Positions 26,322 to 31,245 of a DNA stretch of 64,000 nt are shown one piece after another. The stretch comes from Candidatus Kapaibacterium sp. (GTDB lineage Bacteria; Bacteroidota; Ignavibacteria; Kapaibacteriales; UBA2268): assembly GCA_013414795.1 (NCBI GenBank), contig CP058732.1:124001-188000 (forward strand). Direction: 5' to 3'. A model generated the notes under the pieces. It did no database searches and was not told where the DNA came from. It was given only the letters and a program-made list of their open reading frames with translations. Made by a program: the position numbers and the translations under genes. Each line of letters begins with the position of its first letter. Within the stretch, counting starts at the first letter, position 1.

Positions 26322-26891
26322 TTAACTATTTCCTACTTTTTTAAGAATATATTTCACTTTTCCAACGATTTGCAACTCTATATCGGATTTGATTTCCACG
26401 GGCTTGTACTTTTCATTTTCGGAAATCAGACGATAACCGTTATGTGCCCTTTCAACACGCTTTACAAAGTAAGTATCTTCGACCTTAACGACATAGATTC
26501 CGCCATTTTCAAATGGAACCTCTTCGATGAGAACCACATCACCGTTTTCAATTCCTACACCCTTCATCGAGTCGCCCGAAACAGTGAAGGATTTCAAGCC
26601 CTTCTTCAAAGGAGAAGTTGATGCTTCCAAAGTTTCTGCCTCGACAACTATTCGGTTCTTGAAATTTAGTTGATTCGAGGCAAGGGGTTCAGCATCCCCC
26701 ATTTCACACAAAAAGTTAAGCAAATCGAATTTGTAGAATGCATTGTCGAGCAATTCGTCGGGGTCAATACCCATTGTTTTCAATATTGAAAGGGTTCTGT
26801 TAAAATTTGGTGGCAATTGTCCACGAATATGTGAAAGATAAATTTCTCGCTCAATCTTTCGAATTATTTGCTTTCGCTCTTCTTCATTCAT
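26322..26891 (-). CDS. S24/LexA-like autoprotease-domain regulator without HTH
   Basis: The C-terminal half (about 100-185) of this 189-residue protein is an S24 signal-peptidase/LexA fold. Catalytic Ser108 lies in VSGDSMKGVGIENGDVV and Lys144 in FVKRVER, a 36-residue spacing close to that in LexA. The N-terminal ~70 residues are helical but show no clear DNA-binding motif, and no Ala-Gly cleavage site is apparent. Its start overlaps the end of an upstream XRE-type HTH gene by 8 bases (ATGAATGA). The two genes may therefore be the halves of a phage CI-type repressor made as separate, coupled polypeptides. Confidence 0.85.
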   Translation of the reverse strand: MNEEERKQIIRKIEREIYLSHIRGQLPPNFNRTLSILKTMGIDPDELLDNAFYKFDLLNFLCEMGDAEPLASNQLNFKNRIVVEAETLEASTSPLKKGLKSFTVSGDSMKGVGIENGDVVLIEEVPFENGGIYVVKVEDTYFVKRVERAHNGYRLISENEKYKPVEIKSDIELQIVGKVKYILKKVGNS

Positions 26892-27345
26892 TTTTACTCC
26901 TTTTCCTTATTATCTCCATCAAATCGCCAGCAACTGCTGTATATCTTTGAGCAAGTTCAATCAAGTCATCTACATTTGCGTATGTAATCCCTTCAATTCC
27001 AGAAAATGCATTACCATTGTATAGCTGGTCTCGATTGTCAAAGTCCTCAATATTCATTTGTCGTAAGATTGGAGCAAGTTTTTGACTTAATTCCCGACCC
27101 GCTATGTTGGGTGCAAAAATACTTCCCTCGCCAGTGAGTATGTAAATAGGATTTATCCCACGCTTGTACAAAGTTACCAAAAACGATGGAGGAACTTGTG
27201 CTCGACCAAGTTCATAATTTAAAATCTTGTGCATTGTCTCGCCAAGAAGATGTGCAAACTGGGTTGCAGAAAGTTTTCCTCCTTCGTTGAATATCGACCT
27301 TATGAACCGAATTCTTTCACCAATTTCTTTATTCAAATTTTCCAT
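26884..27345 (-). CDS. XRE-family HTH regulator (phage-repressor-like)
   Basis: Read from the ATG at 27345, this is a protein of about 153 residues (a TTG start at 27360 would add five). It starts with a helix-turn-helix: IGERIRFIRSIFNEGGKLSATQFAHLLGE, then a degenerate recognition segment MHKILNYELGRAQVPPSFLVTLYK. The phrase INPIYILTGEGSIF is typical of Bacteroidota/phage XRE repressors. The C-terminus is helical. It is translationally coupled to the S24 gene. Its upstream region holds a perfect palindrome shared with the divergent Mor-like gene, so autoregulation is likely. Confidence 0.85.
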   Translation of the reverse strand: MENLNKEIGERIRFIRSIFNEGGKLSATQFAHLLGETMHKILNYELGRAQVPPSFLVTLYKRGINPIYILTGEGSIFAPNIAGRELSQKLAPILRQMNIEDFDNRDQLYNGNAFSGIEGITYANVDDLIELAQRYTAVAGDLMEIIRKRSKNE

Positions 27346-27380
27346 TTTGATATTTCGCAATTTCTACTTAATTTTGTTGT

Positions 27381-27409
27381 AAGAAATACATAAAATTTAT
27401 GTATTTCTT
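27381..27409. promoter_or_regulatory. 29-bp perfect palindrome, probable operator of divergent regulators
   Basis: Two 14-bp arms (AAGAAATACATAAA and its exact complement) flank one central base. The site lies in the 108-bp gap between the XRE repressor and the Mor-like gene, 35 bases before the repressor ATG and 44 before the activator ATG. A site this symmetric in a divergent regulator gap is most simply a dimeric repressor operator. A terminator is unlikely because the arms are A+T-rich and no transcript ends here. Confidence 0.75.
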
Positions 27410-27453
27410 GCAAAAGCAAAAATAAGAAATTTTTAACAAAAAAAAATAAAAAA

Positions 27454-27723
27454 ATGAAAGATATCTTTTCAAAAGTGGAAGTTGAAGATTTGACAGACGA
27501 CTTAAAATTGGTTGCAAATGCTTGCGGAATCGAAACCGCTCGCAACCTTCTTCGCTATTGTGCTGGAATGTCGATTTATATTCCTAAAATCGCTCGCTTG
27601 GATAAGTTCATCGAACGCTATATTAAAGAAAATTCGACAAAGAACTTCAAAATAATTGCTAACGAACTTGGCGTTACAGAACAATTTATCAAAAAACTTT
27701 TTAGACAAATGAGAAAAAAGTAG
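27454..27723 (+). CDS. Mor-family transcription activator-like protein
   Basis: This 89-residue protein resembles the Mu Mor/C activator family. The N-terminal dimerisation part has VANACGIETARNLLRYCAGMSIYIPK, matching the family's 'GG..IYIP' signature. The C-terminal helix-turn-helix is NFKIIANELGVTEQFIKKLFRQ. In Mu, Mor turns on middle promoters. Here no phage structural genes are nearby, so it may be a domesticated or remnant switch together with the divergent XRE/S24 pair. Length and motif order fit a complete protein. Confidence 0.72.
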   Translation: MKDIFSKVEVEDLTDDLKLVANACGIETARNLLRYCAGMSIYIPKIARLDKFIERYIKENSTKNFKIIANELGVTEQFIKKLFRQMRKK

Positions 27724-29413: not shown

Positions 29414-30277
29414 TTAATAGTAATCCTGCAACTTCTTTTCAAGAATTTCAGAAAGTTCTAAATATCGAGGCGCCTTATGGCTTTTAAAAAAATTTAGTAA
29501 TAATTTTAATGTTTGACCACTTTTAAATATTGCATTAATAATTCCAATATCCCACAATTCTTGGTTTGTTAGAAGATTTTTCCAGACCTTAATTTCTAAA
29601 TTATTAATTTCATTGAAACTATTATCAGGGTTGATATCAAAATTAATTTCTGGAATTTCTGGGAGAGATTCTTTCCATTTAGTAAGCCACTCAAGCAGGC
29701 TGTCCCAATAGTCTTGAACTTCAAGAAATTCAAATAATTCTTTTCCGTAACATAAACGAAGAGTAACATTATAGCCATCTTCAAGGCGTTTTAATTCTTC
29801 TTTATAGTAGTTTTTGTTTTTTTCCAATTTTGGATCTATAAAATACATTATACCAATTATATTGTTGTGATATGATTTCAAAATTTCCACCAATTTGGCT
29901 TCAAAATTTGCAATTTGTCCTCTTTTCTTTGTCGAGTCGTGATCGTCTCTTATTTTTTGCTCAATGAAATAGAATTTTTCCTTATCTTTGAAAAAATGAT
30001 CCAAAGATAGACGCTTTCCATCTGATCTAGTAATACTTTTCCGCAAAATTTCATAGCCCGAATCTTTTAATATCTCTTCAATCAGCTCTTCAAATGCGTC
30101 CCCAAACCTTATTTCTTGGGACTGTAACAAATGTTGCAATATTTTTGTTTTGGGCTTTGACGGCCTGAATAAACCAACGAATCTTTCTGGTTTGTTAGAC
30201 AAATTAATAAGAAGTTCTTTCTTTTGTCTGTCAAAAATGTGTTTATTTAGTATTGCACAAAATTTCTGATAATCCAT
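29414..30277 (-). CDS. Type II restriction endonuclease (PD-(D/E)xK, partner of HinfI-like methylase)
   Basis: This 287-residue protein is coded immediately downstream of a DNA adenine methyltransferase, sharing one base (TAATG), so translation is coupled. A plausible PD-(D/E)xK core is seen: D93 in LSLDHFFKDK and E106-Q-K108 in FYFIEQK, followed by basic residues. The rest is helical with no other domain. Specificity should match the methylase, probably GANTC by analogy to M.HinfI, but this is not proven. The gene is visibly richer in A+T than its neighbours, consistent with transfer. The stop is 7 bases from the insertion repeat. Confidence 0.72.
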   Translation of the reverse strand: MDYQKFCAILNKHIFDRQKKELLINLSNKPERFVGLFRPSKPKTKILQHLLQSQEIRFGDAFEELIEEILKDSGYEILRKSITRSDGKRLSLDHFFKDKEKFYFIEQKIRDDHDSTKKRGQIANFEAKLVEILKSYHNNIIGIMYFIDPKLEKNKNYYKEELKRLEDGYNVTLRLCYGKELFEFLEVQDYWDSLLEWLTKWKESLPEIPEINFDINPDNSFNEINNLEIKVWKNLLTNQELWDIGIINAIFKSGQTLKLLLNFFKSHKAPRYLELSEILEKKLQDYY

Positions 30278-31245
30278 TAGGGTTTATCCCAAAGATTAAA
30301 ATTTAGAACATATTTTGTGTCATTAAAATTTGTTTTATCTATTAAATTTAAATTTTTTTTAAATCTTTTTTCTATCCATTCTACATATTTGGGATTTTTT
30401 TCAATCATAACAAAATTTCTATTCAGTGATCTGGCAACATAGCCAGTAGTTCCAACACCAGCAACTGGGTCAAGTATTAAATCGCCTTCATTTGATGAAG
30501 TAAGAATTACTCTTTTTAATAATTCCACAGGTTTTTGAGTTGAATGGACTTTTTTCCCTGTTTCGTCTTTCAACCTTTCTTTACCATTACACAATGGCAA
30601 TATCCAAACGTTAGCCGCTACTTTCCCAATCCCAAATTGTTTTGCATATTCTTTATGAAAAGTATATTTCTTTGAATTCTTGTCTTTAACAGCCCAAATC
30701 AATGTTTCTGTTGCGTTTGTAAATCTTACACCTAACCAATTAGGCATAGGATTAGTTTTTACCCAAATAATATCATTTAATATCCAATAGCCTAAATCTT
30801 GCATAATTTTACCTATTCTGAAAATACTATGATAAGTAGAAATAATCCAAATTGTGCCTTCGGGTTTCATTACTCTTTTTACATCTATTAGTAAGTTTTG
30901 AATAAACTTATCATATTCCTCAAAAGATTGAAATTTATCCCACTCGTCATCCACCCCCTCGACAATTGTATTTACTGTCCATCTCTTTAATTCCTTCTTA
31001 GGAAGTTGAAGAAAATAAGGTGGATCTAAAAATACTACATCAAATATCTCTGCTGGAAATTTCTTTAAAACTTTTAAAGAATCCCCTAATATGACGCTGT
31101 TAATTATTTCATCTTTCGAGTATGTGTCTTTTTGGTCTATGTCAATGATTTTCTTCAATGAATCAATACCTTTCGTGTCAACATTATTATCATTGAACAA
31201 CACTATATTTTCTTTATTTGAAAAACTTTTTGTTGCTGGTTCCAT
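30277..31245 (-). CDS. DNA adenine-N6 methyltransferase, beta class (M.HinfI-like)
   Basis: This 322-residue methylase has beta-class motif order. Catalytic motif IV (DPPYFLQ, D74-Y77) comes first and the SAM-binding motif I (DPVAGVGTTGYVA, about 259) follows, with Val where most have Phe. GVDDEWDKF, YWILNDIIWVKTNP and LCNGKERLKDETGKKVHSTQKP closely follow the M.HinfI pattern as I recall it, suggesting GANTC as the target. Expression of the methylase before the nuclease, with coupled stop/start, is the usual safe order. The N-terminal ~45 residues are outside the conserved fold. Confidence 0.9.
   Translation of the reverse strand: MEPATKSFSNKENIVLFNDNNVDTKGIDSLKKIIDIDQKDTYSKDEIINSVILGDSLKVLKKFPAEIFDVVFLDPPYFLQLPKKELKRWTVNTIVEGVDDEWDKFQSFEEYDKFIQNLLIDVKRVMKPEGTIWIISTYHSIFRIGKIMQDLGYWILNDIIWVKTNPMPNWLGVRFTNATETLIWAVKDKNSKKYTFHKEYAKQFGIGKVAANVWILPLCNGKERLKDETGKKVHSTQKPVELLKRVILTSSNEGDLILDPVAGVGTTGYVARSLNRNFVMIEKNPKYVEWIEKRFKKNLNLIDKTNFNDTKYVLNFNLWDKP

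Follow-up and report, generated by a model that had tools for sequence, protein, structure and literature searches.

A split HTH-S24 repressor, a Mor-family activator and a phased operator conserved alongside a Mu-like head and lysis island in a family of Bacteroidota

In an ordinary temperate prophage the regulatory switch lies among the phage genes, and in phage Mu the repressor counterpart of the Mor/C activators is Mu c. In Caulobacter crescentus, the HTH/S24-type protein RogA shuts off the activators GafY and GafZ, which turn on CcGTA, a cluster of about 14 kb that makes DNA-carrying particles; as described in PMC9632790 and PMC11150451, RogA is a single protein without key catalytic residues. 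S24 self-cleaving proteins are defined by an Ala-Gly site together with a Ser-Lys dyad (PMC8565304, PMC13148647), and in CI and LexA, including the non-canonical LexA of Bacteroidetes (PMC8565304), these elements and a CI-like HTH domain are carried in one chain that acts on palindromic operators. In ImmR/ImmA, as presented in PMC12637031, repressor and protease are separate gene products and the protease partner is a metallopeptidase. The locus compared with these systems here lies in a 64-kb stretch of DNA, called the window below, and comprises the following features:

26322..26891, minus strand: S24 subunit, 189 aa, S24 core with Ser108/Lys144
26884..26891, minus strand: HTH/S24 stop/start overlap ATGAATGA, 8 nt, read from the sequence
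26884..27345, minus strand: HTH repressor subunit, 153 aa, CI-like DNA-binding half
27346..27376, plus strand: predicted Mor promoter TTTG-N19-TAATTTTG, a match to the consensus given in PMC6847099
27357..27367, no strand: operator site O1 GCAATTTCTAC, from 11-mer motif scoring
27379..27389, no strand: operator site O2 GTAAGAAATAC, 22 bp from O1
27381..27409, no strand: 29-bp perfect palindrome AAGAAATACATAAA-A-TTTATGTATTTCTT, inside O2, spacer and O3
27401..27411, no strand: operator site O3 GTATTTCTTGC, 22 bp from O2
27417..27446, minus strand: predicted HTH-S24 promoter, -7 box TATTTTTG, poor -33 element (TTTT)
27454..27723, plus strand: Mor-family activator, 89 aa, profile match

Gene coordinates, strands and the 8-nt overlap agreed with the original prediction when checked on the sequence, and AAGGAG stood 5 nt ahead of the S24 start codon. 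The S24 protein matched the Pfam profile PF00717 (E 2e-19, passing the cut-off), and its model consisted of a three-helix N-terminal domain, a low-confidence linker (residues 70-95) and the S24 core, for which LexA, UmuD and CI cores were the top folds in structure comparison; a degenerate HTH at the N-terminus was considered and rejected, the model giving the three-helix domain instead. The HTH protein matched phrog_8 (E 2e-6) and, weakly, HTH_19 (19.4 bits, below the cut-off of 30.2); the N-terminal part of its model was multi-helical at high confidence, and no protease was found in it. Assignment of the divergent gene to the Mor family was borne out by a match to PF08765 at 27.2 bits (cut-off 24.9), a likeness to phage Mu Mor/C, with a CI/S24 pair here in the place of Mu c. 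The Mor protein also matched phrog_836, and its sequence match to the Mu middle operon regulator 1rr7 reached only E 0.28. The locus had been described as a phage-like switch without phage genes in the window, and we likewise recognised no phage structural genes there on reading the ORF translations. An N6/N4 DNA methyltransferase and its 287-aa neighbour, which has no Pfam match (29414-31245), looked like a restriction-modification pair.

Across 24 genomes of the Bacteroidota family, a group to which the window is assigned through its named relatives (MAGs under the labels Kapabacteria, Ignavibacteria, Bacteroidetes/Chlorobi or Bacteroidota), the triad of HTH, S24 and Mor genes was present in 22, and its conservation in the family is close to certain. 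HTH adjoined Mor in 22 of the 24, and Mor relatives occurred in 23, own genome included; Mor had no match in G301, and G309 (85% complete) carried another type of Mor, one that contigs bearing long Mu portals also have. HTH and S24 genes were adjacent in 18 of the 22 triads, at different places in three (G307, G310 and G313) and cut apart by contig ends in one (G305). A CI-type repressor made as two coupled genes had been proposed, with a fused ORF in relatives named as the sign of a frameshift; the two genes were separate in all 22 triads, and a frameshifted fused CI was rejected because these include no fused relative. A 307-aa HTH ORF in G307 (L068) was also rejected as a fusion, its extra length being a Lys/Ala/Pro-rich tail that runs off the contig and contains no S24 domain. 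Genes neighbouring the triad mostly differed from genome to genome, none next to Mor being common to genomes beyond one close pair, and relatives of S24, HTH and Mor were not found on viral contigs. Judged from these sequence comparisons, the triad is a phage-type switch fixed in the chromosome of a bacterial family.

Several loci had additional features. The genes directly ahead of the unlinked S24 genes of G310 (L157) and G313 (L158) have similar C-termini, which suggests that the relocation happened once, in an ancestor. On contig C58 of G314, a second HTH gene and two S24-like genes (L163/L080) shared the contig with a second-type Mor and a long Mu portal, and one of the S24-like copies seems to have no catalytic Ser. 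Of the 17 triads from genera other than the window's, 11 (L062, L064, L067, L068 and L070-L076) had a small, mostly acidic ORF separating the operator from Mor. Judged by eye, these ORFs shared a motif of about xDLxFxxxDYL; the three scanned gave no convincing family match, and an anti-repressor or a Mor partner is a possible role.

In its sequence, the repressor resembled a CI split at the cleavage site. From residue 90 on the HTH proteins were poorly conserved, with the exception of an Ala-Gly motif, which in the window reads AVAG-D (A139-G140) and is kept in relatives. Of the 22 HTH tails, 21 contained the pattern [AVSC]AG, whereas 2000 shuffles averaged 1.3 such tails and never exceeded 5. 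The motif had been derived from the tested sequences themselves, and the set included a few rows with extra N-terminal residues and L068 cut after the motif. A139 was invariant in 23 of 23 aligned HTH proteins, and the single tail exception, G303, read AAAK, not AAG. Among the S24 partners, Ser and Lys were invariant in 20 of 20 aligned triad proteins, and 19 of 22 matched PF00717 only from position 19-37 (25-26 for the window's protein), without the cleavage-site part of the profile; the UmuD-type relative L110 had Ala-Gly at about position 9-10. The S24s of G160, G287 and G313 matched from position 4-7 and read GAA-K/R there. By eye, GAA stood about 36 residues ahead of Ser in 8 of 23 S24 partners, these three included, with Lys, Arg or Ala next in place of the expected Gly, and is perhaps a dead cis site. 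One triad partner was an 88-aa bare core.

As in CI and LexA, the S24 core had its Ser-Lys dyad; unlike in them, HTH and S24 occupied separate polypeptides, with Ala-Gly on the tail of the HTH protein, and the window's S24 protein showed no Ala-Gly site in cis. As neither the fused chain nor the cis site was found, the pair is not classed as an ordinary CI/LexA repressor. The separation of repressor and protease is shared with ImmR/ImmA, from which the pair differs in having an S24 (Ser-Lys) protein and not a metallopeptidase as partner. ImmA-type metalloproteases belong to family M78. RogA is one protein, whereas the repressor here is split and keeps Ser-Lys. In the open-licence literature we found no S24 protease with a gene separate from that of its repressor, which does not prove absence from print. 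We think it reasonably likely that the HTH tail is the substrate or docking site of S24; that S24 cuts it has a little under an even chance.

The perfect 14+1+14 bp palindrome reported originally was present, and it grows to 37 bp with one mismatch. Its 14-bp arms were the longest of the perfect palindromes in the window (next longest, 10 bp), and simulating 20 windows of 64 kb with the same first-order composition gave longest arms of 7-12 bp. The palindrome does not represent a single operator: because of the 22-bp phasing of sites seen in the loci, we read it as O2 and O3, with O1 a further 22 bp closer to HTH, giving an operator of three 11-bp GTA-N5-TAC sites exactly 22 bp apart. O1 reads as a perfect GTAAAATTTAC in two genus relatives. 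These sites came from scoring 11-mers upstream of HTH against GTAA-N3-TTAC in 24 loci (the 22 triads plus contigs L055 and L057, which agree in length with none of the triad contigs), a motif derived from the scored loci themselves, with the 22-bp spacing not built in. At the stricter threshold, a 22-bp spacing occurred in 18 of 24 loci and a 44-bp spacing in 11, each against a mean of 0.02 in 300 shuffles, in which no spacing was ever reached by more than two loci; with the looser threshold the 22-bp spacing was found in 20 of 24 loci versus 0.57 in shuffles. We are highly confident that the phased operator is genuine. In G287, where Mor and HTH lie on one strand, the operator pair was upstream of Mor.

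A search of the 24 whole genomes for the exact pattern GTA-N5-TAC-N11-GTA-N5-TAC returned 14 places in 13 genomes, 13 of them at the triad locus (the exception in G109), and the reversed pattern, used as a control, 5 places in the 24 genomes. The own genome scored zero because O1 and O3 of the window each carry one mismatch. In that genome half-sites with up to two mismatches matched 24 times (two at the triad locus) against 9 for the reversed pattern, and no second operator pair was found with up to three mismatches. Nor did further copies of the palindrome, originally suggested as worth seeking, appear in its 2.66 Mb with up to three mismatches. Since no second paired operator was found in the own genome, remote control would run through Mor. 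With the consensus TTTG-N19-TAnnTTTG as given in PMC6847099 (the -7 box also in PMC9723704), the -7 box of the predicted Mor promoter sits between O1 and O2, and the predicted Mor and HTH-S24 promoters stand face to face across O2-O3.

Mu-like genes elsewhere in the genome had also been suggested as worth seeking, and they were found as a short Mu portal island on C1 at about 2636836-2642669, some 168 kb away from the triad on the assumption of a circular contig. The Mu portal PF06074 occurred in 23 of 24 genomes and was missing only in G301, and neither an HK97-type portal nor a contractile sheath, the one tail component sought outside the islands, was found in any of the 24. The portal was short (about 335-405 aa) in the 22 triad genomes, with a fragment in G160, where the capsid match was also absent and the island looks broken; several long portals (464-537 aa) shared a contig with a second-type Mor. 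Besides the short portal, the island encoded a protease (phrog_976), a capsid protein (phrog_1005), a cement protein (PF09956), a Mu gp36 adaptor (PF07030), two small membrane-type proteins, a protein with a CHAP-like domain and one unknown. Nine syntenic island gene families were each present in 13-22 of the 22 loci, several loci being cut by contig ends, and a third membrane-type family in 7 of 22. The CHAP-like domain scored below the cut-off in 5 of 6 proteins tested and was not detected in the own copy, and no terminase match was obtained among the island proteins scanned. Phage matches listed for the capsid were 27-37% identical, with RcapMu and further transposable phages among them. 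Viral contigs yielded one relative of the island capsid protein.

Before the last island genes, 9 of 22 loci (L175, L176, L177, L178, L179, L182, L185, L186 and L188) had a variable fibre-like gene of 152-703 aa starting WGxIxG..Q.DL; four of the nine matched tail-fibre or tail-collar families, and lectin-like domains lay in or beside two. The gene is a candidate for the receptor-binding protein of a particle, and none was found in the islands of the window's genus. The 5' leader of the island in that genus (L169, L171, L187, L060 and L170) contained, by eye, a conserved stem-loop of the GCGAAA..TTTCGC type just past the predicted start.

Triad and short-portal island occurred in the same 22 genomes, both being absent from the other two; such identity is unlikely to be accidental, with a chance of 1 in 276 for independent genomes, an assumption that does not apply here. 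In G298 the protease and capsid genes followed HTH-S24 after 310 bp on the same strand, and in G305 portal and triad shared one contig. Only these two genomes had both in a common contig region, triad and island being mostly unlinked elsewhere, unlike an ordinary temperate prophage. Mor and portal distances were correlated (r 0.77; 0.61 with one genome per genus, reached in 0 of 2000 permutations), as were Mor and capsid distances (r 0.69; 0.57 with one genome per genus). HTH-domain distances correlated weakly with those of Mor, portal and capsid across all genomes (r 0.31-0.38) and not with one genome per genus (r -0.27, -0.22 and -0.18, respectively), and mirror-tree support from HTH was rejected as the correlation was gone after this reduction. 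The genome comparison thus indicates that a three-gene module with a phased three-site operator is conserved with a mostly unlinked island, which was very probably co-inherited with the triad.

Island promoters of the window's genus contained a candidate Mor site. Four of the 5 genus genomes had two TTTYRAAA-like dyads, 11 bp apart, at a distance of exactly 39 bp ahead of TAGTTTTG, and the dyad occurred at 3% of other offsets; in the fifth, G299, the dyad was present and the -7 box weaker. Outside the genus it fitted one of eight island loci (L178, L179 and L188, cut by contig ends, were dropped from the promoter set). In the own island promoter (C1:2642640-2642686) the dyad halves were TTTCGAAA-like. 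As with phage Mu Mor/C, the candidate site is next to where the -33 element would be; unlike Mu Mor/C, Mor here would act in trans on a mostly unlinked island. Searching both strands with a pattern taken from the island promoters (up to two mismatches) gave 42, 26, 17, 33 and 26 matches in G000, G296, G297, G298 and G299 and 15, 20, 11, 15 and 20 with the reversed pattern, that is, many imperfect matches only moderately above the control. The five zero-mismatch matches were four islands and L195, which had no gene start downstream. In 30 loci examined, 22 of the 26 sites besides the four islands lay in open frames of at least 100 codons, a weak criterion since two island sites also lie in such frames. 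The matches at L210, L218 and L220 were in short frames and had a gene start nearby, and L210 looks sigma-factor-like. Eight near-identical copies of TTTGRAAATGTTTTGG... on several contigs of G298 (e.g. C7:68303) are probably a repeated element.

We favour reading the locus as the retained control switch of a Mu-like element kept by the family, a reading that, mechanism included, we consider fairly likely. HTH dimers would bind O1-O3 cooperatively, two helical turns apart, shutting off the Mor promoter while tuning their own. S24 would bind HTH through the Ala-Gly motif of its tail and so supply the C-terminal half that a CI repressor would have. On an inducing signal, perhaps activated RecA, S24 would cut or release the HTH tail in trans, repression would fail and Mor would be made; Mor would then activate the head/lysis island from the dyad just upstream of the island -7 box, leading to particles and lysis. 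That DNA damage is the signal is a tentative suggestion. Action of Mor on the island is fairly likely, and the switch probably governs remnant virus-shell and cell-bursting genes that lie at another place in the genome. Control of a distant prophage, as proposed in the original prediction, therefore stands in that a distant phage-derived target probably exists, but this target is more likely to be the conserved head/lysis island of Mu-like type than an ordinary prophage.

Other explanations bear on separate parts of this reading. The HTH tail may be a dimerisation or docking element only, its Ala-Gly helix packing on a second HTH or on S24, with S24 a non-cutting corepressor or oligomerisation subunit. 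In the window's genus the segment is predicted to lie inside a helix (residues 125-152), so the tail could be a dimer helix; a cut at Ala-Gly would take off only about 4-26 C-terminal residues, and Caulobacter RogA works without key catalytic residues, as reported in PMC9632790. We nevertheless consider this account unlikely: the partner's Ser and Lys are invariant, in several genera the tail (..VIKVAAGKIKK is an example) looks too short or too basic to form a helix, and Ala-Gly with Ser-Lys are the determinants of S24 self-cleavage stated in PMC8565304. Still less probable by far is a functionless remnant, either of a prophage control region or of a frameshifted CI. The absence of recognised phage structural genes among the window ORFs, as read, would suit it; the family-wide conservation of three genes and operator phasing and the lack of a fused relative argue strongly against it.

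Mor might instead serve another regulon, the island being co-inherited and controlled otherwise, as two independent remnants of one ancestral phage. The sharing of a contig region in G298 and G305 alone, and a candidate Mor site not conserved beyond the genus, are consistent with this. Such a history is rather improbable given the identical presence and absence of triad and island in 24 genomes, the island adjoining HTH-S24 in G298, the correlated divergence of Mor and portal, and the lack of common Mor-neighbour genes beyond one close pair. A further proposal makes the module the LexA substitute of the genus, mainly controlling DNA repair: the triad S24 and UmuD are the only PF00717 matches in G296, G297 and G298, so no fused LexA is apparent there, and Bacteroidetes use CI-like SOS regulators (PMC8565304). 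Against it, the paired operator occurs only at the module's own promoter region, one place in the family excepted, and no 22-bp-spaced sites were found upstream of other S24 genes, mostly umuD-like, in the 28 loci read (L110-L139, 30 loci, less L138 and L139, which had no usable start). The wider SOS role raised originally is without support for the latter reason, and we regard a LexA substitute as highly improbable.

In its circuit logic the favoured switch parallels, by analogy, RogA-GafYZ-CcGTA, with an HTH/S24-type repressor over a dedicated activator over a distant domesticated head-gene cluster; Mor here stands where Caulobacter has GafY and GafZ. A conserved head-gene cluster kept family-wide is a property of gene transfer agents that the island shares. 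The island is not classed as one because its packaging motor was not recognised and it is known here from genes alone, in contrast to the particle-making CcGTA; no Kapabacteria gene transfer agent was found in the open-licence literature, which leaves absence from print unproven. Speculatively, this could be a new lineage of Mu-derived domesticated particles kept family-wide under the first two-subunit CI with S24 cutting or docking on an Ala-Gly tail in trans, the products being GTA-like or empty or protein-carrying capsids with optional fibres and release by a CHAP-like lysin. If so, the substrate and protease of LexA/CI would be found on two natural proteins, in-trans S24 cleavage could be studied without engineered fragments, and a Mu-derived family-wide capsid island with its own switch would join the domesticated phage particles already known. 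Single-site tests are offered by the phased operator, the Ala-Gly tail and the candidate Mor dyad. Elsewhere in the own genome (C1, about 19796-49047), there are signs of a separate Mu-like prophage: a portal of the long Mu type (486 aa) and a small S24 protein 28 kb further along.
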